Below, piece by piece: positions 9,701 to 62,954 of a DNA stretch of 64,000 nt. Numbering within the stretch: position 1 is the first letter of the stretch; each line of letters starts with the position of its first letter. The notes beneath the pieces were generated by a model that did no database searches, was not told where the DNA came from, and saw nothing but the letters and a program-made list of their open reading frames with translations. A program made the position numbers and the translations under genes. The DNA is from Pseudanabaena yagii GIHE-NHR1 (lineage in GTDB: Bacteria > Cyanobacteriota > Cyanobacteriia > Pseudanabaenales > Pseudanabaenaceae), in NCBI RefSeq assembly GCF_012863495.1, contig NZ_JAAVJL010000001.1, forward strand, positions 3,405,501 to 3,469,500, in the 5' to 3' direction.

Positions 9701-9701
9701 T

Positions 9702-10166: not shown

Positions 10167-10241
10167 AATAGCTTGTATGGTCGGTTTTTTCAGTCACCGT
10201 CAAAAAACACATAGCAGTAGTTCATAACTGTGGAGGTTTTA

Positions 10242-11312: not shown

Positions 11313-11328
11313 AAAGAGGCAACTAACC

Positions 11329-14477: not shown

Positions 14478-14625
14478 CAAGCATTTACATTTGAAACGAA
14501 TTTCCAAATCCAACAGTTGTGAGTCGAACCTAGTTGCTTAACCATGAAGTTCAAGCCTTAATGATGTAAATTTTAATCCACTTCATAACAAAGTAAAATT
14601 GGTGAAAACAGAAATAATTATGAAT

Positions 14626-14665
14626 GCGATCGCCTAGAAATCACGACTCACAGTAATAGCGATTG
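14626..14665. repeat. Short interspersed HIP1-bounded repeat (copy 6)
   Basis: GCGATCGCC, GAAATCACGACTCACAG, TAATA, GCGATTG: the forward form of the family. Its right end is the point where the IS701-type transposase relic stops, so the two are joined. Confidence 0.75.
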
Positions 14666-14950
14666 TATTGTCTTTGTGCCATCTCAATTTTGGCATGTCG
14701 TTTGTCTAGCACTGTGTCGTCAAACAGCACGTACATGTACTTGGCTTCATCGGTAATGATGGTTGGTTTCTCGTTTTGCCAGACTATTCTTGGAGTCAGT
14801 TTTTCTCCTCTCATATATCGGTTGATTTGGTCGTGACTGTACCCCTCTATATGTTCGGCTAAGTTGGTGATTGTATAGTTGATCTGGCTACTCAGCAGAT
14901 AACTCTTCTTGTTTACTTCTTTTTGTTCACTGCGTAAGTCATAATAAATT
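14660..14950 (-). pseudogene. N-terminal relic of an IS701-type transposase
   Basis: On the minus strand an open stretch encodes the pattern QINYTITNLAEH, SHDQINRYMRGEKLTPRIVWQ and YVLFDDTVLDK, the N-terminal third of IS701/IS4-like transposases with the first catalytic aspartate (FDDT). No start codon is in frame and the frame ends after RQYNRYYCES, inside the HIP1-bounded repeat at 14626-14665. The rest of the gene is absent. This is a dead fragment lying between the SRPBCC and MAPEG genes. Confidence 0.8.
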
Positions 14951-16913: not shown

Positions 16914-17666
16914 CTAGTGCCACTTTGGAACAATTAGAACCTTGATCTCAAAATCATCTTCTTTCTTGTTTAAGTCGTTCTCAAGTCCGCGAGGATTTGA
17001 AATCCAACCCTCTGGGTCATATACAAAACACAAGAGTTTCTCACAGTCTGGATGAACTCTGTAGCGCTGTGAATCAATGATCAATTCCTCACCAATATCC
17101 TTAGCTTTCAATTTTTGCCTCGTCTTCTTAACCTCAATGATGATTCTTTCATCCTTGAGTAGAAAGTCCACTCGGGAGCATCCCCCCGCATAACTTGGAG
17201 TCCATTCTTCTGGTCTGATATCGTCGAAGTAGATATGCAAAAGAGAGTGCAGCAGATCTTGAACATCGTACTCGTCGTTAATGTGCAAGGTTTCTCTATC
17301 GTCATGCCTCGCTTTTATCTGTTTTGCAACAAGGTGAAAGCGCGAACAAATCTGTTCTACATGATGGAAGTAGTCAATTTTTATGCTTTCAGCAAGCTTT
17401 GATGCCAATTTAGCCTTGGCTGCTGTCCACGGAAATGAAGAACCACAGTTCTCGCAATGGGTAGGAATTGGAGTGGGAAAGCCTATGGATACGACATTCT
17501 CGACGTGGTAATCACCCAGTATCTCATGGTTGCAGTTAGGACACTTGTATATCGTTTCTGCCCCGCATTTAGAACAAAACTTTCTGCGAAACTCTGGCGA
17601 ACGATGATAATTGTCAGTAATCTGGTGTCCGTTTAAACATACTTGCTGAGTGTCGTGTTGTCCCAC
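16914..17666 (-). CDS. Zinc-ribbon (DUF2321-like) protein with a C-terminal PD-(D/E)XK-type nuclease domain
   Basis: Residues 8-80 hold at least three CxxC knuckles (KFCSKCG, YKCPNCN, THCENCG), and the opening VCLNGHQITDNYHRSPEF resembles DUF2321. Residues 135-250 have SRVDFLLKDERIIIEVKKTR, the D-x(n)-E-x-K signature of PD-(D/E)XK nucleases, followed by HPDCEKLLCFVYDPEG. The same C-terminal block occurs in putative restriction-like proteins. A role in sensing or cutting foreign nucleic acid is plausible but inferred. It is the last of a minus-strand group with two HNH genes. Confidence 0.75.
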   Translation of the reverse strand: MGQHDTQQVCLNGHQITDNYHRSPEFRRKFCSKCGAETIYKCPNCNHEILGDYHVENVVSIGFPTPIPTHCENCGSSFPWTAAKAKLASKLAESIKIDYFHHVEQICSRFHLVAKQIKARHDDRETLHINDEYDVQDLLHSLLHIYFDDIRPEEWTPSYAGGCSRVDFLLKDERIIIEVKKTRQKLKAKDIGEELIIDSQRYRVHPDCEKLLCFVYDPEGWISNPRGLENDLNKKEDDFEIKVLIVPKWH

Positions 17667-17775
17667 TGGGTAACCTTCTTAGAGAGGTATAACGTTATCA
17701 ATTATCGGACGCAAACTTTCGCTTGCACCCAGCATACTTGAAAGTTCTGAAGCATTGCCATTGTAAGATGGAGAT

Positions 17776-18603
17776 TTACCTCAGCTTAGAGGATATCTTA
17801 TTTTTGTCAGAGTATAAAGGACTATCACCATTATTTTCTGATAACCAACGTTGATAGCCCTCAATCTCAGCACCACCGCAGTTGATTACAAGCTCTAAAC
17901 CGAAAATAGCCAAAACGCAAAACCATTCGCCCCAACTTGTCTGAAGAATAACGGATTCATGAACAATTTGGACTTCCGAGCCAAATTCATCGATCCATTT
18001 CTTATTAGACTCATAGATACGACGTAAGTGATATGGCCAATAAGTTGTATCTCCCCGACGAGCGTGGTTCCTAAGAAGATCTAGCTGCGATTCATTGACT
18101 AAGTAGTCGATTCCAGCAGCAGCATTTGAGTCGTCACTCTCTTTACAACTTTCTAAGATACTTAAAGCCATCAATTCGAGAGCTACTTTAGCCAAAAATC
18201 TTGAGACGATTCTGTCTGGCGGAGGCTCATCATGTCCAGAAAAGACTATTTCTCCACCATTTTTTTCAAAAAGAACTTTGATGGCTTCAGGTGGCATATC
18301 AACTAATCCCAATAATGGACTTTCTGAATAGCGATATGCAGTTACTGCAAATTCGGATGAGAATATTCCTTCTAATGGTGGTACTCTTCGCCTTTTATTA
18401 GGAACAACTTGATGAAAGCGAAGAGCTTTCAAAGCTGGAGATTCAAGAAAAGGTTGCTCTACTTTACGCGCAAAATAGTTATTGCATGTATCGCACACAA
18501 TTCCTTTTGGAAGCACTTTTGTTGTGTTACCGAGAGATTCTGGAATAATATGCTCGACACTCTTGGATTTGCTTGAGTCGTTTTTGCAAAAAATACATCG
18601 CAT
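17776..18603 (-). CDS. HNH endonuclease-domain protein
   Basis: I chose ATG 18603, giving 275 residues, because GAGGAGG lies 10 bases upstream and relatives start MRCIFC. The N-terminus has the HNH pattern: CIFCK, then SVEHIIPESLGN with the histidine metal ligand, then CDTCNNYF. The rest (residues 60-275) is not recognised. Metal-dependent DNA or RNA cleavage is expected from the family. It is preceded by a HIP1 repeat cluster and followed by the zinc-ribbon nuclease-like gene 110 bp downstream. Confidence 0.82.
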   Translation of the reverse strand: MRCIFCKNDSSKSKSVEHIIPESLGNTTKVLPKGIVCDTCNNYFARKVEQPFLESPALKALRFHQVVPNKRRRVPPLEGIFSSEFAVTAYRYSESPLLGLVDMPPEAIKVLFEKNGGEIVFSGHDEPPPDRIVSRFLAKVALELMALSILESCKESDDSNAAAGIDYLVNESQLDLLRNHARRGDTTYWPYHLRRIYESNKKWIDEFGSEVQIVHESVILQTSWGEWFCVLAIFGLELVINCGGAEIEGYQRWLSENNGDSPLYSDKNKISSKLR

Positions 18604-20372: not shown

Positions 20373-21260
20373 TTAAACCAATGGCAGTCCAGCAATGCCA
20401 ACCTCAAGTCTTACCACTTTTCCCGATTCAACCCCAGTAGCAGGAGGGAAAGACATGCCGCCGTTAGTTGTGACATAGATGCTAGTGCGATCGCCTTCAG
20501 ATGTGCCGAAAGCTAAAGCCGTGCTGCCTGCCATGCCCTGCTCTAGTTGAGCAATAGTAGTGACAGTGCCATCTGGAGCGATCTTCACCACACTGTTAAA
20601 AACGTGAGTCGTACCATAGAGATTCCCTTCGATATCAAAGGCAAAGTCGTCAATATTAATTCCAGAGAGAAAGATCTCTGGTTCTCCTGCCAAGCGATCG
20701 GCGAGAATGGGAATTTTCACAATCTGCTGCTTTTGTGTATTGGAAGCATAAAGAAAGTTATCGTAGATTTTTAGTCCGTTTACTGCTGGAAAGACTTCTT
20801 CAGGTGAAGTACGCGCAATATCGGCGTGTTCGAGCCAAATGCTAACCGTTTTCGTTGGCACGTTCAACTGCCATATCGCACCACGATAGGAATCAGCAAT
20901 CAAGTAATTATCGCCATCTAATCCAGTCAATCCATTCAAAAATATGGCTTCGGGCAATTCCGTCAAAAGTTCGACCGTTCCATCGCTAGCAATGAGCCAT
21001 ACTACAGAAGTTTCCTTCTCATCCCAACCTGACAGCAGAAGTTCTCCATTTGGTGTCAATGCTAAGCCAGTCGCTTTGCCTGCGATTGTTGCATGGGTTG
21101 CGACAACTCCATCAGTACTGATACGAAAGACCTTGCCTTCGTAATGACTGGTGATAAATAAAGTGTTGTCCGCATCGACAACAATGCTCTCTAGAAATGT
21201 ATTAACAGGAAATTCGGCGATCGCTTGGGCAGGTAATAGGTCAGTTAGGGTTTCAATCAT
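20373..21260 (-). CDS. SMP-30/gluconolactonase-like beta-propeller protein
   Basis: The 295-residue protein shows repeated propeller blades with the pattern D-x-L/F-x-x-T/S and G (ADNTLFITSHYEGKVFRI, SPEEVFPAVNGLKIYDNFLY, DIEGNLYGTTHVFNSVVKI). It has no signal peptide. Family members hydrolyse lactones or act as calcium-binding proteins; which applies here is not clear. It is the middle gene of the VOC, SMP-30, ABM operon, with 12-bp and 16-bp gaps. Confidence 0.82.
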   Translation of the reverse strand: MIETLTDLLPAQAIAEFPVNTFLESIVVDADNTLFITSHYEGKVFRISTDGVVATHATIAGKATGLALTPNGELLLSGWDEKETSVVWLIASDGTVELLTELPEAIFLNGLTGLDGDNYLIADSYRGAIWQLNVPTKTVSIWLEHADIARTSPEEVFPAVNGLKIYDNFLYASNTQKQQIVKIPILADRLAGEPEIFLSGINIDDFAFDIEGNLYGTTHVFNSVVKIAPDGTVTTIAQLEQGMAGSTALAFGTSEGDRTSIYVTTNGGMSFPPATGVESGKVVRLEVGIAGLPLV

Positions 21261-21272
21261 GATTTTTCACCT

Positions 21273-21662
21273 TTAAGAGATAGGAGTACATAGTTCGACA
21301 AGAGTTCCATCTGGGCAGCGAACATAGGAAACAATCTGTCCCCAAGGTTTGGCTTTAGGGGCTGCTATTTCGATCGCACCTGCGGCGATTGCTTTTTGAT
21401 GGGCAGTTTCAATTTCATCGGTTATCAAGGCAATTTCCATGCCTAAAGGCTTTTCTGAGGAATCTGTGGCAACATAACCATCAGGAAGATTGGATTCTCC
21501 CAAGGAATGGGCGGCAAAAGATAAAGTTGTTGCGCCAGTATCGAGTTCGCCGTAGGTTCCCGAATCATCTACAAATTTCTTGTGAAATCCGAAGGCATTT
21601 TCAAAAAAAGCGATCGAACTAGATACATCGGAAACATAAACGATCGTATATCCAAATTTCAT
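21273..21662 (-). CDS. VOC-family (glyoxalase/dioxygenase-like) protein
   Basis: The 129-residue protein has two beta-alpha-beta-beta-beta modules typical of the vicinal-oxygen-chelate fold: MKFGYTIVYVSDVSSSIAFF and, from about residue 72, MEIALITDEIETAHQKAIAA, ending GTLVELCTPIS with the glutamate metal ligand. Substrate unknown. It is first in its operon. Its promoter region was shared with the HxlR-type gene before an IS903-type element inserted between them. Confidence 0.87.
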   Translation of the reverse strand: MKFGYTIVYVSDVSSSIAFFENAFGFHKKFVDDSGTYGELDTGATTLSFAAHSLGESNLPDGYVATDSSEKPLGMEIALITDEIETAHQKAIAAGAIEIAAPKAKPWGQIVSYVRCPDGTLVELCTPIS

Positions 21663-21901
21663 TGGCTTGTCCTATTCTGTAGGCTAATTAGTTTCAAAAT
21701 CAGTAGCCGTCCTTCACAAAAGCTCTGGCTAAGCCCATGCTAACATCTGTTCCAAATCCAGCGATTGCAGATATAGAGTTGGTCATTTTTTAATCATTAT
21801 TTTTCTAATAATTGGGATATACATTATTCTTAATAAGCAATAACATCAAAGGTTATTAGTTACCAAATGGATACTAGTACGATTATTTTTGAGTTTAGAT
21901 C

Positions 21902-22956
21902 GGCGTTGTTGCATAAAAAGGGGAAGAGAAGGTAAATTAGATAAAAATCAGGAGATGGAGTCCCAGCAAATGACACAGAAACATGAGATCCGCAACTGGA
22001 CAGAGTATAACGCAGGGCTAAAACAAAGAGGAAGCCTGACTTTTTGGATGAGCGAAGAAGTAATTGAAGGATGGTTAAATCAAACATTAAGTGGCAAACG
22101 GGGAGCTTCCAAAGATTACAGTGATATAGCAATAGCGACATTTATCACGGTCAAAGCGGTATATCAGCAAGCAGGAAGACAAACGCAAGGACTGTTAGAG
22201 TCAATATTTGCCTTGATGGGAATAGATTTACCAGTACCAGACCACAGCACCGTGTCAAGACGGACAGCAAGTTTAAGTGTGACCTTACCAGTAATCCCGA
22301 AACAGGGAGCAGTGCATGTAGTAGTTGATTCGACAGGGATCAAAGTATACGGCGAAGGGGAATGGAAAACACGGCAGCATGGAATTAGTAAGAGACGGAC
22401 ATGGCGCAAATTACACCTAGGAGCCGATGAATCAACAGGAGAAATACTGGCTGCGGTCGTCACCACGAATGATTGCCACGATGGAGAAGTACTCGCCGAT
22501 ATTCTCGATGCGATTGATGCTGAAATTGCTCAAGTTTCCGCAGATGGAGCTTATGACCATCGTCATTGTTATGACGAGATTGCCCAACATGGTGCTAAAG
22601 CCGTGATTCCTCCGCGCAAAGATGCCAAAATCTGGCAGCATGGCAATACCAATGCTCCACCACATCCGCGTGACCAAAATCTCCGTTATATCCGTAAACA
22701 TGGGCGTAAAAAATGGAAACGTGACTCAGGTTATCATCGGCGCTCTTTGGCAGAAACTACGATGTTTCGTTTCAAAAAAATCTTTGGTGCTACTTTATGT
22801 TCTCGTAAATTTGACAATCAGGCGGTTGAGTTGTTCATCAAATGTGCTGCTCTTAATCGCATGATTCAACTGGCTAAACCTCTCTCCTCTCCTGTTGTTC
22901 GTTAATTTTCTAAGATCCTCCATCTTTTGGCTTCTTTTTATTCATGCAACAAAGCC
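21902..22956 (+). mobile_element. IS5-family (IS903-group) insertion sequence, copy 1
   Basis: The element is 1055 bp. Its ends read GGCGTTGTTGCATAAAAAG and, from the other side, GGCTTTGTTGCATGAATAAA. It is flanked by the 9-bp duplication GTTTAGATC (21893-21901 and 22957-22965), the length expected for the IS903 group. A second copy lies at 61444-62498. Confidence 0.93.
21970..22905 (+). CDS. IS5-family transposase
   Basis: The 311-residue protein starts MTQKHEIRNWTEYNAGLKQR. The DDE residues are seen in VVDSTGIKVYGEGEW (first D), ADGAYDHRH (second D) and RRSLAETTMFRFKK (E, inside the conserved R-x5-E context). I chose ATG 21970 with GGAG nine bases upstream, because the longer frame reads through the IS end and the target DNA. 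Identical in sequence to the copy at 61495-62430. Confidence 0.93.
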   Translation: MTQKHEIRNWTEYNAGLKQRGSLTFWMSEEVIEGWLNQTLSGKRGASKDYSDIAIATFITVKAVYQQAGRQTQGLLESIFALMGIDLPVPDHSTVSRRTASLSVTLPVIPKQGAVHVVVDSTGIKVYGEGEWKTRQHGISKRRTWRKLHLGADESTGEILAAVVTTNDCHDGEVLADILDAIDAEIAQVSADGAYDHRHCYDEIAQHGAKAVIPPRKDAKIWQHGNTNAPPHPRDQNLRYIRKHGRKKWKRDSGYHRRSLAETTMFRFKKIFGATLCSRKFDNQAVELFIKCAALNRMIQLAKPLSSPVVR

Positions 22957-25914: not shown

Positions 25915-27465
25915 CTATCCCCGAATGACGATAATCTCTCGACCTGCGGGACTAATGACATTTTCAGTGGTAGTGCGATCACTTAGAGGCGGCAAACCAG
26001 AACGGCGATCAAAGATCACCAACCAACCCGTATCCAAACTCAACCCCGACAAATACTTATCGATCTGCGGCAAACCTTCCTTAAGCGGATCAGGTCTTTT
26101 ATCCGCCCAAACCTTCAACTCCATTGCCAAAGTTTGTTTACCATAGCGCAAACAAATATCCATCTTACCCGAACCGATCGCATATTCCCTTTCCAACGAG
26201 CCGTTAACATTAACCACCCGATGCAAAAATGCCATCATCACCAGATGAGGCGCAATTTCTGGATAATTAGCACTCTTGAACAATGGCTCACCATGTTGTC
26301 TCCAGAACTTGAGAAAAGCTTCAAGCAGGACTTGAGCATTGAGACTTCCATCAGGATTTAACCAACTAGGTTGAATCATCGGTAGACTATCCTGCACCCC
26401 TTGAGATAAACCCCTAGGAATCACTTCTTGATAGATGGGATTCGCAATCTTCAAACCACCTTCCTGACTCCGCACCACTAACCCCAAGTCTAACAAATAG
26501 CGGCGGTCGTCATCTGGGGTATCTCCTAACTCTAAGCCAGATAAAATTGGTTGGATGATCGCTCTGACTCTATCTTCTCTCAATCTTTCAGCAAGACTAT
26601 CCAAATGAGTATCCTGTCTCTTAATCAGAATCTCCTTAGCCTCATTTACCAAATCAGCCGTAATCGGAATTGCAGGATCTTTCGTGATATATTCCACAAT
26701 TTCCTTAGCGATCGCATTCACCAACCAAGGCTGACCCTGAGTCAAATGAAAAGCTAAATCAACAGCTTCAGGAGTAAATATCTGTCCTGTGGCATCCGTA
26801 TGCTGCTGATAAAGATTTCTCACATCTTCAAGCGTAAAGTTACTCAGAGTAAAAGAACGCACTTTGATATTAAAAGGACTAGAAGTATTTAGGCGGTCGC
26901 TTCCTCCTGATGCATACTTATAATCCCGTACATCGCGCATCCCCACTAATGCAACTGACTGCGGAAATCCCTTGGGACGGCGTGGAAATCCAGATCTAAT
27001 TTGCCGAAGTACAGAAACTAGAGTCTCATCACTCAAAGCATCAATTTCATCGAGAAACACCACTAATGGTCGTGACGACTCCTGTGTCCATGCTGCCAAA
27101 AAAGCACCAATGTGACGACCTGATTCTCCTAAAATTCTATGACTGGGGTGCAACTCTGGCGGTAAATAAAACTTAATTGCATCCTGCCACTCATCCAAAA
27201 TTGCTCGACCTGCTAATTTTGGGTCATGGGAAAATACAGCCCCTACTTCCAGTGATAACATAACCGCCGTATATTGACCGCTAGCCGTTAACTCTTGAGC
27301 AAGTGCCAACATAGCTGTAGTCTTACCCACCTGCCTTGGTGCATGGATCACAAAATAGTTTTCCTGAGCAATTAGTTGTTTGATTTCAGGTAAGCGGTCA
27401 GTAGCTGACAACATGTAGTGAATGTCAGGCTTACAAGGACCAGCAGTATTAAACCATTTGGGCAT
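25915..27465 (-). CDS. AAA-type ATPase with a C-terminal PD-(D/E)XK-like domain
   Basis: From ATG 27465 the protein has 516 residues and starts MPKWFNTAGPCKPDIHYML like its relatives. The Walker A motif is HAPRQVGKTT (about 38-47) and Walker B is VVFLDEIDAL. A winged-helix-like region follows. The last 110 residues contain GKMDICLRYGKQTLAMELKV, the D-x(n)-E-x-K pattern of PD-(D/E)XK nucleases. This AAA plus nuclease-like architecture is widespread in cyanobacteria, with no firmly established role. The upstream frame to 27516 has no better start. Confidence 0.82.
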   Translation of the reverse strand: MPKWFNTAGPCKPDIHYMLSATDRLPEIKQLIAQENYFVIHAPRQVGKTTAMLALAQELTASGQYTAVMLSLEVGAVFSHDPKLAGRAILDEWQDAIKFYLPPELHPSHRILGESGRHIGAFLAAWTQESSRPLVVFLDEIDALSDETLVSVLRQIRSGFPRRPKGFPQSVALVGMRDVRDYKYASGGSDRLNTSSPFNIKVRSFTLSNFTLEDVRNLYQQHTDATGQIFTPEAVDLAFHLTQGQPWLVNAIAKEIVEYITKDPAIPITADLVNEAKEILIKRQDTHLDSLAERLREDRVRAIIQPILSGLELGDTPDDDRRYLLDLGLVVRSQEGGLKIANPIYQEVIPRGLSQGVQDSLPMIQPSWLNPDGSLNAQVLLEAFLKFWRQHGEPLFKSANYPEIAPHLVMMAFLHRVVNVNGSLEREYAIGSGKMDICLRYGKQTLAMELKVWADKRPDPLKEGLPQIDKYLSGLSLDTGWLVIFDRRSGLPPLSDRTTTENVISPAGREIIVIRG

Positions 27466-27861
27466 GACGACAACTAAACTAACGGGCAGAGATACCCCTT
27501 CAATATATCGCAACAATCAAAGTAAAGCCCTCAAACCTTGAATTTACGTTGAGCAGTAATGAGTATTTATACTGGTTCGTATAAATTTAACAACAAATTA
27601 TCCTGTGGCTATCTCTCTATCTTTCTGAAGATGTTGCGATCGCTTAAAATTGAAGTTTACAATGAGGCTGATCATATCTATTGGGAAAGAGTTCTATGAT
27701 TGTTTTCCCTGGATCTGCCATCCAAATCAAAATCAATGAAAGATCTAAATCCTAGTATATAGTGGGATTAGGGGCTCAATCTGAATAGCTGTAATTTAGT
27801 CTTACGAAAGCTAGAAATGCCTGATTCTACATGCTTCCTTAAATAGGATTTGCATAGAAAA

Positions 27862-28064: not shown

Positions 28065-28415
28065 TCAATAAAAAGTATCTTGTGTTATCAACTCTGCCAG
28101 TTGTTGTTCGAGTTCTACTGAATCAATCAGGTTGATTTCTAGCATCACGCGCTCTAGTGCCAAAAGCCAACGCTGATAATAGTTCCAGCTTGGGTCATCG
28201 AGGGCATGTGAGGACTCCCACTCTCCAATTGACGTAATCAATTGCTGTCGAAAGTCTTCCCATTCGTAATGACCTTTTTTGGAGAGGGCGATCGCGATTC
28301 CAAAAGCGCGACCTTCCCAAGAATCTTCAAAAAACAGTTCGCCATCACATCGGGGTGGTGAGTCCTTTCTGCCTAGCATACTAGTCGCGGCAAAATGCTC
28401 AAATTGAGTTTGCAT
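28065..28415 (-). CDS. Nitrile hydratase accessory protein
   Basis: The 116-residue protein, from ATG 28415 with AAAGGAG six bases upstream, resembles the N-terminal part of the beta subunit and the family of small nitrile hydratase accessory proteins (GELFFEDSWEGRAFGIAIAL, YEWEDFRQQLI). Such proteins help insert the metal into the alpha subunit. A longer frame to 28499 lacks a ribosome site. It follows nthA by 173 bp, a gap that holds a 12-bp inverted repeat, and is the last gene of the nitrile hydratase group. Confidence 0.85.
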   Translation of the reverse strand: MQTQFEHFAATSMLGRKDSPPRCDGELFFEDSWEGRAFGIAIALSKKGHYEWEDFRQQLITSIGEWESSHALDDPSWNYYQRWLLALERVMLEINLIDSVELEQQLAELITQDTFY

Positions 28416-28487
28416 TGGTTGCTCCTTTAAGCAATTGAGGGCTTGAAAGATGAACTGTTGATCTTTCGTTGATCGGCTTAGCCATAT

Positions 28488-28535
28488 TCCACAAGTCATC
28501 CGCTTACTTTTTAATGGAAGTGAATGACTTGTGGA
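28488..28535. promoter_or_regulatory. 12-bp inverted repeat between nthA and the accessory gene
   Basis: TCCACAAGTCAT (28488-28499) and ATGACTTGTGGA (28524-28535) form a stem with a 24-base loop. It could be an RNA processing or attenuation site that lowers expression of the accessory gene, or a DNA-binding site. The role is inferred. Confidence 0.45.
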
Positions 28536-28588
28536 GGATAAGTGTTGTGGGTGGGATAAAAAGCGAGCTAATAGGTATTAGGCGATAG

Positions 28589-29212
28589 TTACGCTACCTT
28601 AATTTTGCCAACTCCCATCATTGATTCGGGCGTAACTATTGCCGCTAACTGGCTTTCGCTCATGCCTGCTGTGCCTTCTGGTCTCTCTGGCAATACCGAC
28701 CAACGAATTTGGGCGCTACTATCCCAGACTTTAATTTCGACGGCGGGATCGATCACTAAGCCAAATTCTTTCAGGACGGCACGAGGTTCGCGCACGGCTC
28801 TGGCTCGGAAGGTTGGATCTTTGAACCAGTAGGGTGGTAATCCCAAAGTAGGCCAAGGGTAGCAAGAACATAGGGTACAGACAATCAAGTTATGGACTGT
28901 AGGCGTATTTTCAACAATCTTGAGGTGTTCACCCTCGGCTCCAGACATGCCAGGGGGGAATTTCATCTCAGCGATCGCGGCATTAGCGTCTTTTAACAAG
29001 CGCATTTTAAAGCTCGGATCAACCCAAGCCCGCGCCACAATCTTGGCTCCATTAAACGGTCCCATCTCTGTTTTGAAGTACTTCAAAACCTGATCGACGG
29101 TGGAACCTGTAATCACTCCTTTCTTCACCAGCAGCGCCTCTAAGGCGTGAACGCGTGCCGCACTGTAGGCTTCTCGATCGGTACTGTACTTAAAATGCTC
29201 GTATCCACTCAT
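28589..29212 (-). CDS. nthA: Nitrile hydratase alpha subunit, cobalt type
   Basis: The 207-residue protein carries the metal site C112-T-L-C-S-C117 (VCTLCSC). Threonine at the second position is the known mark of cobalt enzymes, while iron enzymes have serine. With the beta subunit it hydrates nitriles to amides in the cytoplasm; two of the cysteines are expected to be oxidised to sulfenic and sulfinic acids. It starts 12 bp after the beta gene stop, the beta-alpha order found in cobalt nitrile hydratase operons. Confidence 0.95.
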   Translation of the reverse strand: MSGYEHFKYSTDREAYSAARVHALEALLVKKGVITGSTVDQVLKYFKTEMGPFNGAKIVARAWVDPSFKMRLLKDANAAIAEMKFPPGMSGAEGEHLKIVENTPTVHNLIVCTLCSCYPWPTLGLPPYWFKDPTFRARAVREPRAVLKEFGLVIDPAVEIKVWDSSAQIRWSVLPERPEGTAGMSESQLAAIVTPESMMGVGKIKVA

Positions 29213-29224
29213 AAAATGATAACC

Positions 29225-29974
29225 TCAAACGGATTCAAGATAGGTTTCAAACAGATCGTCGTAATAGGTTGAATTTGGATCACTCTTGGCAGTTCCCCAA
29301 ATATCTGCTGGACTAAAGGCAACAAGATAGACAGGCATCGGTTCGCCGATTCCATCTGGACCAGTAGAAAAGAAATAGGTGTAGGCATCTGGATAGACTA
29401 AGTAAACGGTGCCCGTTTTGCCTCGGAGATGGCCCGGTAGGCGAGTGTGATCCACGACAATCGGATCTTTGACCTTAACTTTGCTGCCAACGGCAAATTT
29501 AGGTTTGGTAGTCAATTCTCGCTTGGGTGAATCACCTTCCCGCAGGTAGCGAATCACTTGGGTGTCGATCGCTGGATTACCCCCAGCAGGTGGGGTGAAG
29601 CTAGTAGGCTTTGGGCTAGATAGATAACTAGCAGTAGCAGCGTCGAGTTCGGCCTCGGTGACATAACCCTTCTCGATAAAAAATCCAGAGATTCCACCTA
29701 ACCATTTTTCGTAATAGCGTAGCCGAAAGTAGTCAAAAGGTTGCATGCCTTCGGCTCCTGTACGTAGGTGACCCCAAGTCCAAAAGTCCTTGAATTTGGT
29801 GGGTACCTGCTTAATTGGATACTTGGGAATCGCCTGATCCAAGTGATTACTCAGCGCCATCATAGCGACGTGAATGCCAAAAATACGCTTTTCCCACTCC
29901 TCCACAAATACTTTCTTCTCAACACTCACAGGACCGAGATTCTCGATACCTCCTAAATAATGCTGCAATTTCAT
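29225..29974 (-). CDS. nthB: Nitrile hydratase beta subunit
   Basis: The 249-residue protein starts MKLQHYLGGIENLGPVSVEK, with FVEEWEKRIFGIHVAM, and has the C-terminal SH3-like barrel typical of the subunit (VGSKVKVKDPIVVDHTRLPG, then GKTGTVYLVYPDAYTYF). It forms the heterodimer with nthA and shapes the active site through conserved arginines. It lies 39 bp downstream of the CobW-type gene, in the same direction. Confidence 0.95.
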   Translation of the reverse strand: MKLQHYLGGIENLGPVSVEKKVFVEEWEKRIFGIHVAMMALSNHLDQAIPKYPIKQVPTKFKDFWTWGHLRTGAEGMQPFDYFRLRYYEKWLGGISGFFIEKGYVTEAELDAATASYLSSPKPTSFTPPAGGNPAIDTQVIRYLREGDSPKRELTTKPKFAVGSKVKVKDPIVVDHTRLPGHLRGKTGTVYLVYPDAYTYFFSTGPDGIGEPMPVYLVAFSPADIWGTAKSDPNSTYYDDLFETYLESV

Positions 29975-30013
29975 TCAGTTATCCTCCTCTACTTATTGAG
30001 ATTTAGTTAGATC

Positions 30014-31000
30014 CTAGCCACCGACTTCAACTGGGACTTCTAGGCGACAAGCCTGAAAATCCGCTTTTAAGATCTGTTCATCCAAATTACGACCAATGAA
30101 CACCAGTTCGTTTTGGCGTACTTCCTCAGATCTCCACGGCTTACCGGGTCTACCGTCGAGAGTCATGTGGACACCTTGAAAGACAAAACGCCGATCTGCG
30201 TCATCCAAATTCAAAATGCCCTTCATGCGGAAGATATCTGCACCTTGTTCTTGGACGAGTTGGTAAAGCCAACGGTTAACTTCGGTACTGCTGTAACTAC
30301 CAGTAGTAGTAATGGAGACGGACGATATTGACGAATCATGTACATGGGTATCCTCTGTCAAAAACTGTGGATCGATACTCAGTGCTTGTTTGAGGTCAAA
30401 GGCATTTAAACCGAGTAATTGATCGAGGTCAATGTCACAATTCAGAGTTCTATATAGTTTGGCAATCGCATTCATACCACGCACGCGTTTTTCTAGTTCT
30501 TCCAGAATGGTTGGCGATACCAAATCAATCTTATTTAAAATCACGACATCAGCAAATGCAATTTGCTCCTGAGCTTCACTACTTTCCCAGTGATCCCAGA
30601 TGTGCTTAGCATCGACTACTGTAACTACCGCATCTAGGACTGTTTCTGCATAAAGCACCTCATCGACAAAGAAAGACTGAATAACGGGAGCGGGATCGGC
30701 TAATCCAGTTGTTTCGATTACTAGAACATCAAACTGATCACGACGTTCTAGCAGCTTGCCAATCATTCGGATTAAGTCGCCTCTGACGGTGCAACAAATG
30801 CATCCGTTATTCATCTCAAAGATTTCCTCATCGGTTCCAATCACAAGTTGGTGATCAATTCCGACTTCGCCAAATTCATTCACAATTACAGCAACTTTCT
30901 GACCATGATCAGCTGTCAAAATATGATTCAGTAGAGTGGTTTTTCCAGCCCCAAGATATCCCGTCAATACCGTTATGGGAATTTTACGTAATCCTGACAT
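30014..31000 (-). CDS. CobW/P47K-type metallochaperone GTPase
   Basis: The 328-residue protein has the P-loop GYLGAGKT (14-21), the metal-binding C67-I-C-C70 motif (GCICC), a switch ETTGLADP and the base-recognition motif NKID. The C-terminal CobW domain follows from about residue 215. CobW-type proteins deliver metal to specific targets; P47K relatives activate nitrile hydratases. Position between the FGE-like gene and nthB supports delivery of cobalt to this enzyme. That partner assignment is inference. Confidence 0.93.
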   Translation of the reverse strand: MSGLRKIPITVLTGYLGAGKTTLLNHILTADHGQKVAVIVNEFGEVGIDHQLVIGTDEEIFEMNNGCICCTVRGDLIRMIGKLLERRDQFDVLVIETTGLADPAPVIQSFFVDEVLYAETVLDAVVTVVDAKHIWDHWESSEAQEQIAFADVVILNKIDLVSPTILEELEKRVRGMNAIAKLYRTLNCDIDLDQLLGLNAFDLKQALSIDPQFLTEDTHVHDSSISSVSITTTGSYSSTEVNRWLYQLVQEQGADIFRMKGILNLDDADRRFVFQGVHMTLDGRPGKPWRSEEVRQNELVFIGRNLDEQILKADFQACRLEVPVEVGG

Positions 31001-31017
31001 GTCAAACTTCCTTTAGA

Positions 31018-31974
31018 CTACACATGCACAACTCGAAATCCAATCATGCGATTTAAACCATCCGCAGGATAGCCAGATCGACTAGCTGATCGAACCTGCG
31101 AAGGAGTATCAGCCCAACTACCGCCCCGAAGAGATCGCAAAGCCGACTGTCCGTCCTTGATCCATACCTGACCTTGGGTGGGAGCACCTTTATAGTCGTT
31201 ATGCCAATGGTCGGCGCACCATTCCCATACATTGCCGTGCATGTCGTTTAATCCAAAGGCATTAGAACCGAAATTCCCAACTGGTGTTGTTTCGGGTAGA
31301 TAGGCTGCGGCGGGTTCTGCCGCATAGGCAAATTGGGTATTGTAGTTGGCTAACTCAGAGGTGAGCGTAAGACCTGTTGCAAAAGGGGTGCTCATACCCG
31401 CTCGGCAGGCATATTCCCATTCGGATTCGCTAGGTAGGCGGTAGGTCTTACTGGTGTAATGTGACAGCCGATCACAAAACTCCACTGCCTCTAGCCAAGA
31501 AACGGACTCGACAGGGCGATCAGCCCCAACAAAATGAGCAGGCTGGGCTAGCAACGGTCGATTGATTTGGGGCAGTTGAGCGACTGCCTGCCATTGCGCT
31601 TGGGTGATTGGATACCTAGACATAAAAAAGGGTTTCAGTGCGACCCAGTGAGCAGGTAACTCCTGAGCTGATTTTTGACCATTTGAGGTTTCCCCCATCA
31701 CAAATCTTCCTTCAGGAATCGCCACCATGGTTAGGCTGGATGTTTCCCCTAACTCAGTGCTAAAAAAGTGGGCTTGCCGAGTTTGCCGATCAACTTCCTG
31801 ACCACGACGGTCAACGATCGGCACTTCAAACTCAAAAGAGCTTAGGAGATCCTTCGTGCTTTTGGAATGGCTCTCCGACCGACCTAACGTGGTTGCTAAG
31901 CCCTGAGGCGCTAAGCTACAGACCAAGCCCAAACCACTCAAACTGGCATATTGAATTAACCGTCGTCTTTTCAC
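31018..31974 (-). CDS. Formylglycine-generating-enzyme/SUMF1-like protein with a signal sequence
   Basis: The 318-residue protein begins MKRRRLIQYASLSGLGLVCS, a possible twin-arginine or Sec signal, with cleavage near residue 27. The SUMF1 domain runs from about 85: GRFVMGETS, FFMSRYPITQAQWQAV, RLPSESEWEYACRAG, GNVWEWCADHW, LRGGSWAD and the final IGFRVVHV. SUMF1 domains oxidise cysteine in sulfatases or act as structural folds in other enzymes. Lying 17 bp upstream of the CobW gene, it may belong to the nitrile hydratase operon; its job there is unknown. Confidence 0.87.
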   Translation of the reverse strand: MKRRRLIQYASLSGLGLVCSLAPQGLATTLGRSESHSKSTKDLLSSFEFEVPIVDRRGQEVDRQTRQAHFFSTELGETSSLTMVAIPEGRFVMGETSNGQKSAQELPAHWVALKPFFMSRYPITQAQWQAVAQLPQINRPLLAQPAHFVGADRPVESVSWLEAVEFCDRLSHYTSKTYRLPSESEWEYACRAGMSTPFATGLTLTSELANYNTQFAYAAEPAAAYLPETTPVGNFGSNAFGLNDMHGNVWEWCADHWHNDYKGAPTQGQVWIKDGQSALRSLRGGSWADTPSQVRSASRSGYPADGLNRMIGFRVVHV

Positions 31975-32735
31975 GATGAGCTATCTCCAATCTCTTTAGA
32001 TGATGAAATGGTCAGAAAAACTTACGATCAATGAAAATCAAATCAAAAGCATTACACTAATAGGAAATACTCTTAATTAATGCTGATATAAACCCAAATC
32101 TTATTAAGATAAGAATCAATTAATTATTTTCTGGAAGCGTTTTATGTATCTAAAAAGTCATATGGTTATCATAGTAGAAACAAAAAAGTATTATGTCTTG
32201 AAAGCTACTATTTCACATCAATTATTGCGAAGTTATAGTATGGTGACTTAATAGAATATTTAAAGAATTTTACAATGTCAATTTATACACTATTTGTCTC
32301 TATGAAATACATTTCAACATTTCAAAGAGAGATTAATAGGCAGTATTGGCTGAAAATTTAAAGTTCTAGATATCAGATAATTAAGCATTGTGCTGGAGCA
32401 ATTCTTAGTCTCAAAAACTTAGATCATAAATATTTGTACTTGCGATTTCTCCAAGCTACGGCTCGAGATCTGCTAACTATATCCCTAACAAATTAACTCT
32501 GCAAAAACTCAGTTCAAATAAGATGCTAGAAAGTCTCCGATGATGCACTGTCCTATGTAGCAAAATATCACAAGTGTGGGATATTTTTGTTGCAAGTTCC
32601 TAAGTGCTTTGGTCTTCGGTGATGTGATTCATAAACACTGAAAAGAATTTGTTTAATCCCTTCCTAAAATTTCATGCCAAATGACAAAATGGCGCAGCCA
32701 TTTTGTCATTTTAAAACCCTCACTGGGTTTGTTTT
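31975..32735. other. Gene-free AT-rich spacer
   Basis: No convincing frame is seen on either strand. It should hold the promoter of the nitrile hydratase operon. The only clear structure is a perfect 15-bp stem, AAATGACAAAATGGC with its complement, at 32679-32711, which lies downstream of the DUF1636 gene and could end that transcript. Confidence 0.6.
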
Positions 32736-33170
32736 TTAATTCACCAAATTATCGCAACACCTCGGTGAATTGGTAGTATTTGGGTATGGCGGGATTCGGG
32801 CGATCGCCCCAGATCTTAATTGCTCGGGGCGATTGGCGTAGATTAACAGACCATCTGGCTTAGCGTGATACTGACCAGCACAGGTCAACACAGCTTTGGC
32901 AGTCGCTTCAACATTGGCTAAGTCAGCTATTAACCCTCCAAACAGATAGGTTTGCTTTTTGGGGGAAACGAAAGCGATCGCGCAGGCTTGGTCGCAAACG
33001 CCCATACATTCAACTGGCTGAATCGCGAAATCATCATGCAATGCCCAGTCATCATATAGAGTTTGGAGTTTCTCTAACAGCCACTCACCCTCGCTCTTAG
33101 CCATATATTGTTTGGTTTTATGGCTGCTACCACATCTCGTACAAACAAATAGAATATGTCGATCATTCAT
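32736..33170 (-). CDS. DUF1636 metal-binding (ferredoxin-like) protein
   Basis: The 144-residue protein starts HILFVCTRCGSS and has VECMGVCDQACAIAFVSP, giving the C-x2-C and C-x3-C-x3-C arrangement of DUF1636, a thioredoxin-like [2Fe-2S]-type fold. These genes often neighbour cobalt or cobalamin transport genes. The C-terminus carries extra cysteines (CC near residue 139). It is third in the minus-strand set after the CbtB-like and His-rich membrane genes. Confidence 0.82.
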   Translation of the reverse strand: MNDRHILFVCTRCGSSHKTKQYMAKSEGEWLLEKLQTLYDDWALHDDFAIQPVECMGVCDQACAIAFVSPKKQTYLFGGLIADLANVEATAKAVLTCAGQYHAKPDGLLIYANRPEQLRSGAIARIPPYPNTTNSPRCCDNLVN

Positions 33171-33322
33171 GTGTTTTGGAGTTTGTAATGATTTGCCTGC
33201 AATCCCAAATCACCCTTGCTAGGAGTATCTCAAACCAAACACGAACCAGCTTACATATGACGGGCAAAGAGCCTTGCCCCTCTTCCGATTAATCCATTAG
33301 ACTATTTCTTGCTTTGAGTACT

Positions 33323-34564
33323 CTAGGAAAAGCGACGTTGCCAATCTCGTTTGTTTGCTTGCCGTCGCCACTGCAACCACAGCCCGAGTAGCAAACCAAC
33401 CACGACACAGATGGTCAGGTAAGCGAGCGAAATCAACCGAATCCACAGAGGTGGGGCAACCCCTTCAACATCAATAGTTTGGGTTACTTGGAAGGATTGG
33501 AACTGCCGTTTAGAACCAACTTGAGGGGTCACCTCAACTTCTACAATATGGGGGGCACCATCAAAGAACTGTTCCTGCCAAGTAAATTTTCCGGCACTGT
33601 TGGGCATACCTTGATAGGCAAACGCCACCCATTCATCCTCTTTCGGCTTAGCTTTGATCCGCAAATTTACATCGGTTACAGGTTGCTGGGTTTTGGTATC
33701 GATCAAATCTACTTGGAGGTTAGTAAGTTGACCAACCATGGTCGTTTTAGTGCCCGAAAGTTTCATTTCCAACCCTTGGGATTCCCATTGGGCGGACTGC
33801 TTAGCAGACGGCTCAGAAGTTGTGTGGGAGTGTTCAGTATGAGTGTGATCGGCATGAACATGTTCTGTCTGGGCAGACGCGACGATTGCCCCCTGCGAGG
33901 GCGGCAATTCTGCACTGATATTGACCCAGAGGAGTGCCGCGATCGCGACCACAATCGCGCTATTTAGTAATAAGCGCACCCGTTGCGGGGCAATTTCTCC
34001 AGGTTTTAACGGTTGACCACTGCCAATTATCCACCCACCGACCAGTCCTGCAGCTAGTAGAATGGTCACCAAGATACCGAGGTTACGATATTTCACCCAG
34101 CTTTCTGGCACTGTTAGCGTTAGCGTTTGCTGAATCGGGGCAAAAGAGTTGGGGATAGTCGGTGTAACCTCCACCTGGAGTTGATAGTTGCCGCGAATCG
34201 GTAGCATTTGTTGCCATTCCAACTTTCCGACAGGTGCTACAGCCGTCATGTCGAGCAACGTCGTGCCTTCGACGATCGGGAAATCTGTCGTAAACCAAGG
34301 GGTGGCAGGAGGGGTTAGCAGTTGCAAGTGGATCTGAGTGTTCTTGAGTGCCTGCCCTGCGCTATCCAGAGCTTGCAGGGACAACTGCACAGGATTTTGG
34401 GGATGAATAGCTTCAGCTTCAAAAGGGCGCATCTGGCTGGCGATCGGGCTAGTCGTTAAGCGAATTGAAGGTTGTGGGGCTTGGGCGAACCCTATCCATC
34501 CCCACAAAACCACACCAAACAAACAAATTAAACCAAGCAGCGCTGAGCGCTTAAATTTTGACAT
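33323..34564 (-). CDS. Membrane protein with a histidine-rich loop, probable cobalt-handling protein
   Basis: From ATG 34564 the protein has 413 residues: a signal-like segment ending GFAQA (about 28), an extracytoplasmic beta-rich domain, two membrane segments near 160-182 and 198-215, a His-rich stretch (HVHADHTHTEHSHT), a second beta domain, and a final membrane segment before a basic tail. I do not know the family. The histidine cluster and its place between CbtB and DUF1636 genes suggest periplasmic cobalt binding. The longer frame would need a TTG start. Confidence 0.7.
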   Translation of the reverse strand: MSKFKRSALLGLICLFGVVLWGWIGFAQAPQPSIRLTTSPIASQMRPFEAEAIHPQNPVQLSLQALDSAGQALKNTQIHLQLLTPPATPWFTTDFPIVEGTTLLDMTAVAPVGKLEWQQMLPIRGNYQLQVEVTPTIPNSFAPIQQTLTLTVPESWVKYRNLGILVTILLAAGLVGGWIIGSGQPLKPGEIAPQRVRLLLNSAIVVAIAALLWVNISAELPPSQGAIVASAQTEHVHADHTHTEHSHTTSEPSAKQSAQWESQGLEMKLSGTKTTMVGQLTNLQVDLIDTKTQQPVTDVNLRIKAKPKEDEWVAFAYQGMPNSAGKFTWQEQFFDGAPHIVEVEVTPQVGSKRQFQSFQVTQTIDVEGVAPPLWIRLISLAYLTICVVVGLLLGLWLQWRRQANKRDWQRRFS

Positions 34565-34607
34565 CGCCTTATCCTGCAACTGCTAAACAACTGAGCGGAA
34601 TCTTACC

Positions 34608-34799
34608 CTAGTGGCAATTCACCAACGCTGTGTGGTGGCGAAGTGAATGTACTTTGTCATGAATGGCAGGATGGGTAGTGAAGTAAACTGTCCACAGAGT
34701 CAAGGCTATCAGAGAAACATAAAGCCCTGACTGCACTGGTACTGAGAGGATGCGGCTGGCAACTTTTTGTTGGATTGAACCATAGGTTTGAGTAGTCAT
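34608..34799 (-). CDS. cbtB: CbtB-type cobalt transporter subunit
   Basis: The 63-residue protein has one membrane segment (about 23-42, LYVSLIALTLWTVYFTTHP) followed by the histidine pattern HDKVHSLRHH and a final NCH. This single-helix, His-rich layout is the hallmark of CbtB, a small subunit of predicted cobalt transporters. CbtA, the usual partner, is not recognisable nearby; the next gene, a larger His-rich membrane protein, could take its place. It heads the cobalt set. Confidence 0.8.
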   Translation of the reverse strand: MTTQTYGSIQQKVASRILSVPVQSGLYVSLIALTLWTVYFTTHPAIHDKVHSLRHHTALVNCH

Positions 34800-35100
34800 T
34801 TGAATCTCACAAATAAAATTAGAAAGGTGGATAGAAATGGAAAGGTTAGCTCAAGCAGACCATTGTTAAGGTGGTGCTGTGGTAGGGAATTATAATCGCA
34901 CTGCTCTGTAATTCTTTCCTATGACTGTTGTTCTACGCCAGAACCACGCATGAACTCAGGTACAATCACCAGATTGCAAAGATATTAGAGGGGGTTCCAA
35001 ATATGTTCTGCTACATTTTTTACTTTTGCAGTTTTAGCAGTATTTTTATGACATACTGCTGCTTCTAGTAGACTAAGGCTTTATCTAATCCGTAGACTTA
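34800..35100. other. Gene-free region upstream of the CbtB-like gene
   Basis: I see no coding frame here. I searched for a cobalamin riboswitch on the minus strand and found neither the B12 box nor the conserved core, so control of the cobalt genes is not evident from sequence. Confidence 0.5.
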
Positions 35101-35144
35101 TTTCATAAAAGATGAGGGAAACTGAAACTATGAAGTTCCAGTGC

Positions 35145-35382
35145 ATAGTTTCAGCTAGGGATTGCTACAAGATTTGGCAACTCACTACTGATCGCTAAAG
35201 CCTTTGACAAAACATTAGACGGTATCCAATAAAAACGCACATTATCTTCCTGTAGTTTTACTTGTTTTTTCACCTGCTCATAAAGCTTTTTCATCTGAAT
35301 CTAGACTAATAAAGCACTCAAACACAATTTCTTGAACCATACGCCCATGACCTTCCAGAAAATTTAACAACTTGAGGCGAAT
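35145..35382 (-). pseudogene. cas2: Relic of a CRISPR-associated cas2 gene
   Basis: On the minus strand, RDDKIRLKLLNFLEGHGRMV and QEIVFECFISLD match the first half of Cas2. After one extra T near 35297 the next frame gives MKKLYEQVKKQVKLQ, then DNVRFYWIPSNVLSKALAIS, the second half of Cas2. Removing one base restores a continuous reading. About ten N-terminal residues, including the usual first strand and its aspartate, are missing, with an in-frame stop just upstream. No cas1 or repeat array is visible in the window. It abuts the deleted IS5-type element at 35424. Confidence 0.8.
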
Positions 35383-35423
35383 CTTATCATCTCTCATTCA
35401 AAAACTCGTGCATCATCTGATTA

Positions 35424-35889
35424 GAGAGTGTTTGAGAGGTTTTTGGTGATAAAAAATGGTGTAAAAAAGCTCCCAAAGGTATAGCCTGTCAATATAGAAA
35501 AACAAAGACAGACCTATGGAAGCAACAAAGAAATCATACCCCACAGACTTAACCGATAGCCAATGGGAACTGTTAAAAGACTTGATACCCGCCGCAGGAA
35601 CAGGAGGTCGCAAAAGAACAGTAGATATTAGAGCCGTACTCAATGGCATTTTCTACATCAACGCCGCAGGCTGTGCATGGCGAATGATGCCCCATGACTT
35701 ACCTGTATGGCAAACTGTCTATCATTACTTTCGTTATTGGCGCATTACCAACACATGGCAAGAGATCAACGCTAAACTACAACAGTGGTATCGAGTCAGT
35801 GAAGGAAGAGAAGCAACACCCAGTGGAGGATGTATTGACAGTCAATCAACTTCTCCTTAAACGTCTTGCTTAACTTCTCAAACACTCTC
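35424..35889 (+). mobile_element. Internally deleted IS5-type element (466 bp)
   Basis: The ends are 14-bp inverted repeats GAGAGTGTTTGAGA and TCTCAAACACTCTC, flanked by TA on both sides (35422-35423 and 35890-35891). The transposase is cut short just after the catalytic DSQS, and the right end is retained, so the element is a non-autonomous deletion derivative. Confidence 0.85.
35516..35860 (+). pseudogene. Truncated IS5/IS1031-type transposase
   Basis: The 114-residue frame has the N-terminal domain of IS5-type transposases (YPTDLTDSQWELLKDLIP, AVLNGIFYINAAGCAWRMMP, HDLPVWQTVYHYFRYW) and reaches GGCIDSQST, the first catalytic aspartate, before stopping. The remaining two thirds, with the other catalytic residues, is gone. 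It cannot transpose by itself. Confidence 0.9.
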
Positions 35890-35963
35890 TAATACTAGTA
35901 TTACTTTCGAGATTTATACTTAAATCTGAGTTATTTATGGAATAAAGTAGCTAAGATTAATCT

Positions 35964-36932
35964 ATGCTGACAAATTTTTGGTATGCCGTTGAGTTCTCAG
36001 ATGAAATTACATCTACGCCTAAGCGTATTAAAGTGCTGGATCAAGATTTGGTGATCTATCGCACGGACACTCAGCAGATAGTTGCGATGCAGGATCTATG
36101 CACTCATCGTGGCGCAGCTTTATCTGGCGGGCGGACTAAAGGTGAATGTATTGTTTGTCCTTATCATGGTTGGGAATATCAAGCAGATGGAACCTGTGTA
36201 AATATTCCTGCAAATTCACCTGATACACCTATACCCTATAGAGCGAAGGTTAAGGTTTATGACGCTCAAGAAAAGTATGGATGGGTCTGGTTATTCATGG
36301 GTGATAGACCTGAATCAGAGCGTATCCCAATTCCAGAATTGCCTAACTTTGATGATGCTAAGCTCAAATCTATTCATGGAGATTTTCTTTGGCATACCCA
36401 CTACAGCCGTGTAATTGAGAATCTTTTAGATGTTGCCCATGTCCCTTTTGTTCATGCTGGTGCATTTGGCGATAAAGAGCGTCCACAAATTGCCGAGTTT
36501 ACAGTGGAAAATTATCCGACTGGTGCGGGCGCAACTGTAATGGTCAATGCGTCACCACCTAAAGGAATTTGGGGATTTTTGGCATCGAAGCAACCTTCAG
36601 TAGTAAAAACTCGGACAGCTTTCTTTCTTCCTAATATTACGGTGCTAGAGGTACATTTAGTATTTGGGAGATTGCTCGTTTACAACGCTCATGTTCCCAT
36701 TGATGACCAGACAACCGTAAGTAAATGGATTAATCTGCGGAGCTTTTTTAATGGTAACTGGGCGGATGCAGATGCGCGTAAACGGGTCTTGAAGGTTTTT
36801 AATCAAGATAAAGCGATTGTGGAATCTCAACGTCCCCAGATTGTCCCCTATGACCTTAATGCCGAATTACATGTTCAATCAGATGCTTTACAGGTGGAGT
36901 ATCGCAAAATGCGTCGTCAGTTTTTTGTTTAG
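35964..36932 (+). CDS. Rieske non-heme iron oxygenase (PAO/vanillate demethylase-like)
   Basis: The 322-residue protein has the Rieske ligands C46-T-H48 and C65-P-Y-H68 and the catalytic iron site N153, D156, H159 and H164 (ENLLDVAHVPFVH). This is the classical arrangement of ring-hydroxylating and demethylating oxygenases. The substrate is unknown. Unlike the Rieske protein at 6500, the ligand pairs have the usual 16-residue spacing. It is probably monocistronic and sits between two insertion sequences. Confidence 0.9.
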   Translation: MLTNFWYAVEFSDEITSTPKRIKVLDQDLVIYRTDTQQIVAMQDLCTHRGAALSGGRTKGECIVCPYHGWEYQADGTCVNIPANSPDTPIPYRAKVKVYDAQEKYGWVWLFMGDRPESERIPIPELPNFDDAKLKSIHGDFLWHTHYSRVIENLLDVAHVPFVHAGAFGDKERPQIAEFTVENYPTGAGATVMVNASPPKGIWGFLASKQPSVVKTRTAFFLPNITVLEVHLVFGRLLVYNAHVPIDDQTTVSKWINLRSFFNGNWADADARKRVLKVFNQDKAIVESQRPQIVPYDLNAELHVQSDALQVEYRKMRRQFFV

Positions 36933-37237
36933 AAATTAGTTACTTTGCCATTCACATATCGGTGTGAGACGATCGCGAGGATATGCAGAGTGATATTGCG
37001 GACACAAATCCCTCATGATGAGTTGCACAGACTAGGTAATTGCTATTTGCCTTGTTGAACAAGCGATCGCATAGAAAAGGGCTTAGTATCACTGCCCTAA
37101 TTTTTGGCAATGAGTATATTGATAGCTAGTTGATGGCGATCAGAGCCAAGTTATGAAAAACATATTATGGATTACTACGGTTTTAGCATTAAAAGCTTAT
37201 CTACCTGCTCTAGTGACTGCACAAGTGACTAGAGCAG

Positions 37238-38549
37238 CTGATTGACTGACAAAAGTCTATGAAGCATAGTCGAGAGTAGAAGCATAGAACTCAATGCGGA
37301 ATAATTTCTGAAGATGTTTTCGACGAGAAGCAATAGCAGGGTGAGAGTCAAGATAAGAAGTAAAAGAGTAGAAAGGCAAGAAAGCCCAGTTTTTAGTGAT
37401 AGCGGTGTGAATCCAGTTCCAGCCAATCTTGAGATAACTAAGCCCACGAAACCAATGAGGATCAACCAAACGACGATAGCCAGAATCAGCAACCGCCAGT
37501 CCTTGAGCCGTTAAAAACAAGGTGGTCAGTGCTATCACAAAACAAAGGCGAGAAATGGCAGGAGCCGAACGTAAACGCGAAGATTCTAAATCAAAGCCAT
37601 TAGATTTATCATCCAAGAAATTCTCCTCAATATCGAATCTCAGACCATACTCCCAAAAAGTTTGGAGTGTGGTAGGTTCAGTACTGAGAATATACCAATA
37701 CTCTCGGCTCCCAGATTCCCAAGCCGCCGCAATATGCACATCGGTAAGACGCTTGGACTCAGTTTTGTGAACTTTAACATTGTGGATCAACTTAGCTTCA
37801 CCAAGACGAAGATGTAATTGTTTGACTGTTTGCCAGCCATGCTTGGGGGCATATATCCAGAAATTACCCTTGATCCGAATCCGACATTGCCATTTTAATT
37901 CCCACACATAGCGCACCAGTTCTGGATTAGCAAATGCTCGGTCTGCTAATAAAACTACTTTGACATTCACGGGCAACAGTTTCGATGCGCGTTTGAGCAT
38001 GTCTTGATAGCTACTCATCTCCACACTACTACTGCGATGTTTGATTACACGCCAACATAACGGTAAAGCTCTTCCCTGATGAACTACACACAATCGGATC
38101 ATGCTGTATTCTTCCCACAGTTGACTGGTATCAAAACTCAGATATATTTCTGGCTCTTTCCATTTAGCGATTAACTCTTTGATTACTGGACTGTATAGCT
38201 TAGCTGGATTTATGCGCGGATTGTTCAGCCATCTTGATAGTTGTCTTTGCGTGCTTTGGGCGATCAATGCTTTTGTGTTGATATGGCTTAACCACTTCGT
38301 TAAATTCACACTCCCTGTGGCGATCATTCCCACCATCATCCACGCCATTACTCCCAAATGGCGCACATCTGACCACTGGCTGTATTGACTCCCGAATTTT
38401 ATTAGTTCATTATAGATACGTGAGGCGTTTTGGGTCATTTGTCCTATGCTCCTTTTTCTTCAAAAAACAGCATACGCCTCTTTTTTACTCAAATTCAATC
38501 TCTGTATACTTTCTCGCAACTTCTCTTACCACTTTTGTCAGTCAATCAG
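37238..38549 (-). mobile_element. IS4-family insertion sequence, copy 2
   Basis: It has the same 1312-bp length and 19-bp ends as copy 1 at 2251. The 9-bp duplication is CTAGAGCAG (37229-37237 and 38550-38558). Confidence 0.94.
37257..38438 (-). CDS. IS4-family DDE transposase, copy 2
   Basis: The 393-residue product is identical to that of 2270-3451, with the same catalytic motifs (SFDTS, LLADRAF, EENFLDDKSNG). It is oriented opposite to the secreted-protein gene it interrupts. Confidence 0.94.
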   Translation of the reverse strand: MTQNASRIYNELIKFGSQYSQWSDVRHLGVMAWMMVGMIATGSVNLTKWLSHINTKALIAQSTQRQLSRWLNNPRINPAKLYSPVIKELIAKWKEPEIYLSFDTSQLWEEYSMIRLCVVHQGRALPLCWRVIKHRSSSVEMSSYQDMLKRASKLLPVNVKVVLLADRAFANPELVRYVWELKWQCRIRIKGNFWIYAPKHGWQTVKQLHLRLGEAKLIHNVKVHKTESKRLTDVHIAAAWESGSREYWYILSTEPTTLQTFWEYGLRFDIEENFLDDKSNGFDLESSRLRSAPAISRLCFVIALTTLFLTAQGLAVADSGYRRLVDPHWFRGLSYLKIGWNWIHTAITKNWAFLPFYSFTSYLDSHPAIASRRKHLQKLFRIEFYASTLDYAS

Positions 38550-62933: not shown

Positions 62934-62954
62934 ATTTATCCTTGCAAAGCAATA

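Follow-up and report, generated by a model that had tools for sequence, protein, structure and literature searches.

Two adjacent open frames on the minus strand of a cyanobacterial chromosome look like parts of a broken cas2 gene. We wondered whether they are what remains of a CRISPR-Cas locus that once stood at this place, as the original prediction proposed, or debris that came from elsewhere. The genome comprises 9 contigs and 5.57 Mb, and the stretch of DNA analysed, called the window below, is the 64 kb at positions 3405501-3469500 of its 3.69-Mb chromosomal contig (G000:C1). Coordinates are those of the window unless a contig or another region is named.

The cas2 fragment

The first frame, at 35278-35397 upstream of the frameshift (MRDDK...DEKAL*), encodes MRDDKIRLKLLNFLEGHGRMVQEIVFECFISLDSDEKAL, and the second, past the frameshift at 35151-35294 (MKKLYEQ...VAIPS), encodes MKKLYEQVKKQVKLQEDNVRFYWIPSNVLSKALAISSELPNLVAIPS*, its final residues coming from DNA that is not cas2. 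Joined across the frameshift, the two match the Cas2 profiles of Pfam (PF09827, E = 1.1e-10, 42 bits against a cut-off of 23.8 bits) and NCBIfam (TIGR01573, E = 9e-9), and the Pfam match covers the ferredoxin-like core of Cas2 (profile positions 10-72 of 74); taken alone, the frames reach Pfam E values of 1.7e-4 (first) and 0.057 (second). The joined-frame protein (its residues 3-76) displays 73% identity to the intact Cas2 encoded on plasmid pPg_04 of Pseudanabaena galeata CCNP1313 (WP_281009962.1), the nearest named relative encountered. A tblastn search of the whole window with this intact protein returned only the same place, as residues 11-45 and 42-82 (E 2.6e-24), and the next best match had an E value of 5, so the similarity is not due to chance. 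These searches confirm that the two frames together hold most of a Cas2 protein. At the DNA level the cas2 fragment occupies 35173-35391 (minus strand), which corresponds to codons ~11-82 in a gene of 91 codons, and is 85.8% identical to the P. galeata plasmid cas2 and 87.6% identical to a second copy on contig C6.

The fragment cannot be read as a single ORF: it has a +1 frameshift at 35298-35299, with GATTCAGATG in place of GAT-CAAATG (C6 copy) and GAG-CAGATG (P. galeata). The extra T is thus real relative to both sequences, although it sits 1-2 bases from position 35297, where it had been placed. The first β-strand with its conserved Asp (LVVYDIADDK) is absent, as had been noticed, residues 1-10 being replaced by DNA from the 3′ end of a hydrolase gene. 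Two points of the earlier description need correction: the C-terminal end of cas2 is also gone, homology ending at 35173, and the upstream DNA at 35392-35423 is hydrolase sequence and not random. A search of the whole window found no cas1 or RT match and no spaced CRISPR repeats, in agreement with the observation that no CRISPR locus lies nearby, and the fragment therefore has neither the cas1 neighbour nor the array of an adaptation module. It descends from Cas2 but lacks the first strand, the open frame and the cas1 partner; it makes no Cas2, is most likely without function, and is an ordinary pseudogene relic.

A hydrolase tail joined to cas2

In place of the cas2 start stand 32 bases (35392-35423, minus strand) that form the 3′ end of an α/β-hydrolase gene. 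The complete hydrolase gene of C6, used as a blastn query against the window, aligns to 35423-35384 (85% over 40 nt, E 6e-7), and the tail gives 31-nt matches of 90-94% to hydrolase 3′ ends in the sister genomes G007, G013 and G014. The hydrolase frame terminates (...NQMMHEFLNER*) exactly at the joint. In full, the fused fragment measures 251 bp (35173-35423), and the only other sequence in the genome that bears the joint is C6:62881-63130, which is 87% identical over these 251 bp. A plasmid collection contained only intact cas2 genes and no second example of the joint, and neither a phage collection nor viral contigs returned a match to the relic, so there is no sign of carriage by phage.

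C6 is a 65-kb contig and, judging by its size alone, presumably a plasmid. Its hydrolase-cas2 region (62057-63130) displays a complete hydrolase of 287 aa (Pfam Abhydrolase_1, 7.9e-33) directly followed by a cas2 that has no start and an in-frame TAG, and next after this broken cas2 comes a 10-copy CRISPR array with a repeat containing CCCATTACCCCGCAAGGGGACGGAAAC. The two copies have the joint in common but differ in what is left around it, C6 still having a full-length hydrolase, the 3′ end of cas2 and the array, and in what disables cas2, a TAG on C6 and a frameshift on the chromosome. An ORF with a Cas6 domain lies close to the end of C6. Also near CRISPR material on this contig is a gene for a 993-aa protein (8702-11683 of region L080) whose N-terminal region looks SpvB/TcB-like by eye.

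The probable source locus in relatives

Among the relatives of the fragment in other cyanobacteria, 47 of 51 have cas1 just upstream and 37 of 51 have RT, which makes an RT-Cas1 adaptation module the most likely source. General background on RT-Cas1 in cyanobacteria can be found in PMC5513706. The closest intact cas2 relatives, on the P. galeata plasmid and in G015, lie directly downstream of RT-cas1, and the neighbours of the P. galeata gene are RT-cas1 and a Csx1-type gene. The relic, unlike that gene, has no start, first strand, cas1 or array, is frameshifted and is cut at its C-terminus. A literature search returned no paper on Pseudanabaena RT-Cas1 loci or on the cas2 relic.

Relatives also show where the hydrolase belongs. 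Contig C53 of sister genome G012 carries, on one strand, the hydrolase (20573-21439), a 616-aa gene, a CARF/HEPN gene (17509-18525), pieces of RT/cas1, cas2 (14599-14874) and an array, which places the hydrolase ~6 kb upstream of the RT/cas1-cas2-array. G015:C16 has pieces of the hydrolase, further gene(s), an intact RT-cas1 (697 aa) and cas2. When the C6 joint is aligned to the separate genes of relatives, the hydrolase match extends to 851-855 and the cas2 match begins at 857. Given the order in G012, a single deletion probably formed the joint.

Divergence of the two copies

Because the joint is common to both copies, the cas2 start and the cas1 neighbour were lost before the copies parted. 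About 13% of sites differ between the chromosomal and the C6 copy, and cas2 is disabled by a different change in each, so the two separated after the joint arose and before the frameshift and the TAG. Counted by codon position (first, second, third), the differences from P. galeata cas2 number 8, 9 and 14 in the chromosomal copy and 5, 2 and 21 in the C6 copy; in the three-way comparison that includes P. galeata, the changes unique to one copy number 4, 7 and 2 (chromosomal) and 1, 0 and 9 (C6). The spread in the chromosomal copy is as expected for free decay.

The C6 pattern, with 9 of 10 unique changes at third positions, does not fit a gene that has been dead since the joint arose, and it thus speaks against the reading favoured below, in which both copies were defunct from then on. 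Mosaic ancestry, chance on as few as ten sites or an episode of selection on a chimeric Cas2 could account for it. A candidate start for such a protein is a GTG inside the hydrolase end, from which VSFWIRDDK... would replace the first strand. If the beheaded cas2 was kept under selection for a while after the joint formed, the third-position excess would be accounted for and the chromosomal copy would be a later casualty of the chimeric gene, but we regard this as highly improbable.

The chromosomal site

An IS5-type element abuts the relic, as predicted. It is a decayed IS5-family element of 474 bp (35420-35893, plus strand) with 22-nt inverted ends (35420-35441 and 35872-35893, 95% complementary) and the N-terminal part of a transposase (114 aa, 35516-35860, plus strand; PF13340, 1.8e-26), which covers positions 1-105 of 258 of profile NF033580 at 6.5e-29, a match below that profile's own cut-off. 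The inverted ends and the transposase N-terminus are those of the IS5 family; unlike a full member, the element is only 474 bp long and the remaining transposase is absent, so it is not autonomous. It is the single copy in the genome, hence its ends have no second insertion to be checked against. A 2-base duplication (TA) at the ends is compatible with IS5-type insertion and too short to count as evidence. The hydrolase tail runs right up to the IS end, and the hydrolase sequence is not taken up again beyond the element, which points to a deletion adjoining it.

On the other side, the junction with the cas2 fragment lies at 35154-35173, where blastn alignments end at 35154 (G021) and at 35173 (C6 and P. 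galeata). The left flank (28078-35154) holds genes for nitrile hydratase and for CobW-like and Cbt-like proteins and shares 94-95% identity with G021. The match breaks off at 35154, beyond which the block in G021 runs on into a TPR gene. The continuation of the block is found here at C1:3548628-3551607, ~108 kb away, which makes 35154 a rearrangement point. The right flank, a Rieske-type oxygenase gene with its leader (35917-36962, plus strand), is 86-88% identical in several sister genomes, with homology beginning at 35917-35937. Cas2 was found beside neither flank in any of the relatives examined, and a comparison with related strains thus gives no support to a lost locus. None of the relatives examined has the two flanks side by side, which leaves no uninterrupted empty site for a comparison, and none was found that shows the site in an intermediate state.

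Origin of the chromosomal fragment

We consider it likely that the relic is a dead 251-bp hydrolase-cas2 fragment, the descendant of an already wrecked RT-Cas1/Cas2 locus, that was moved to the chromosome. In the ancestor, a Pseudanabaena adaptation locus, the hydrolase, a CARF/HEPN (Csx1-like) gene, RT-cas1, cas2 and a CRISPR array would have followed one another in this order, and one deletion from the hydrolase stop to about codon 11 of cas2 would have produced the joint. One descendant of the wrecked locus would have stayed on C6, with its whole hydrolase, a cas2 with a stop and the array, and a second would have come to the chromosome by recombination or IS activity, as opposed to being left there by decay in place. 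It would have been trimmed on both sides, at 35173, where the nitrile-hydratase/Cbt block adjoins it, and at 35423, where the IS5-type element ends, and would have gained its one-base frameshift.

The reading of the original prediction, that a CRISPR-Cas locus broke down at the very place of the relic and left a gap that mobile elements came to fill, is unlikely, as is the variant in which an already joined hydrolase-cas2-array segment decayed here. It would explain why the cas2 fragment adjoins IS elements, and the chromosome does have an array without nearby cas genes at C1:133.8-135.1 kb. That array is, however, ~0.39 Mb off round the circle, if C1 is circular, and the window itself has neither array nor cas1. 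The joint in both copies means that cas1 was already gone, and the flanks of relatives have no cas2. The relic thus probably does not mark a place where a CRISPR locus used to stand. Could it instead be a recent copy of the C6 locus? The common joint and an IS element that is 100% identical between chromosome and C6 would suit such a transfer, but with ~13% of sites differing between the copies and with changes on C6 that are missing from the chromosomal copy, such as GGATAAG for GGATGAG in the hydrolase end, it is very improbable. That the frameshift at 35298-35299 stems from faulty sequencing or assembly and the gene is otherwise functional is scarcely credible: the frames are indeed only one base apart, but even without that base the protein would lack its C-terminal end and its first ~10 residues, which hold strand 1 and its conserved Asp, and of the 13 changes found in the chromosomal copy alone, 11 affect first or second codon positions.

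Descent from a wrecked locus matters little past annotation. It illustrates that an isolated piece of cas2 does not have to stem from a former CRISPR locus at its site and that a shared out-of-place joint can reveal a fragment as debris from before its deposition, and it documents the break-up of RT-Cas1 adaptation loci in Pseudanabaena.

CRISPR-Cas and repeated elements elsewhere in the genome

The suggestion that CRISPR-Cas was lost does not extend to the genome, where arrays are present on C6 and C1 and cas1-cas2 is intact on C6 and broken on C3, the only two contigs with Cas1. C6 carries what resembles a type I-D set (csc2, cas6 and cas4 by Pfam, cas1, cas2 and one large gene whose size suits Cas10d) and, besides the 10-repeat array, a second, long one. 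Repeats matching those of the 10-repeat array occur only on C6 and at C1:133.8-135.1 kb. The chromosomal array there (C1:133812-135073, region L162) has ~12-14 repeats (AACCATTTCCCCGCAAGGGGACGGAAAC), and inspection by eye of the ORFs up to ~7-12 kb away brought up no recognisable cas gene. The genome has no intact RT-Cas1; the nearest match is a cas1 fragment on C3, which belongs to a second wrecked adaptation module (C3:477573-478565, region L082) in which cas1 shares 48% identity with the Cas1 portion of RT-Cas1 and cas2 is split over two frames.

A gene for a ~530-aa ATPase-like protein (MPKWFNTAGPC...) is repeated in the genome, at 25915-27516 of the window, at L080 12386-13990 (C6) and at L082 8813-10477 (C3), the copies being 84-86% identical. 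It is also present in G012:C53 (L151) and G015:C16 (L152), and in several contigs and species it lies beside cas remnants and the hydrolase. An IS with a 393-aa transposase has three copies at 99.7-100% identity, two in the window (2250-3574 and 37238-38549), in the same orientation and 35 kb apart, and one on C6 (L080 5548-6872). A second IS, with a transposase of 338-345 aa, is present at 21889-22905 and 61495-62532 of the window and in part on C3 (L082 1-598). The two window copies are inverted and 40 kb apart, and such a pair would be able to mediate an inversion.
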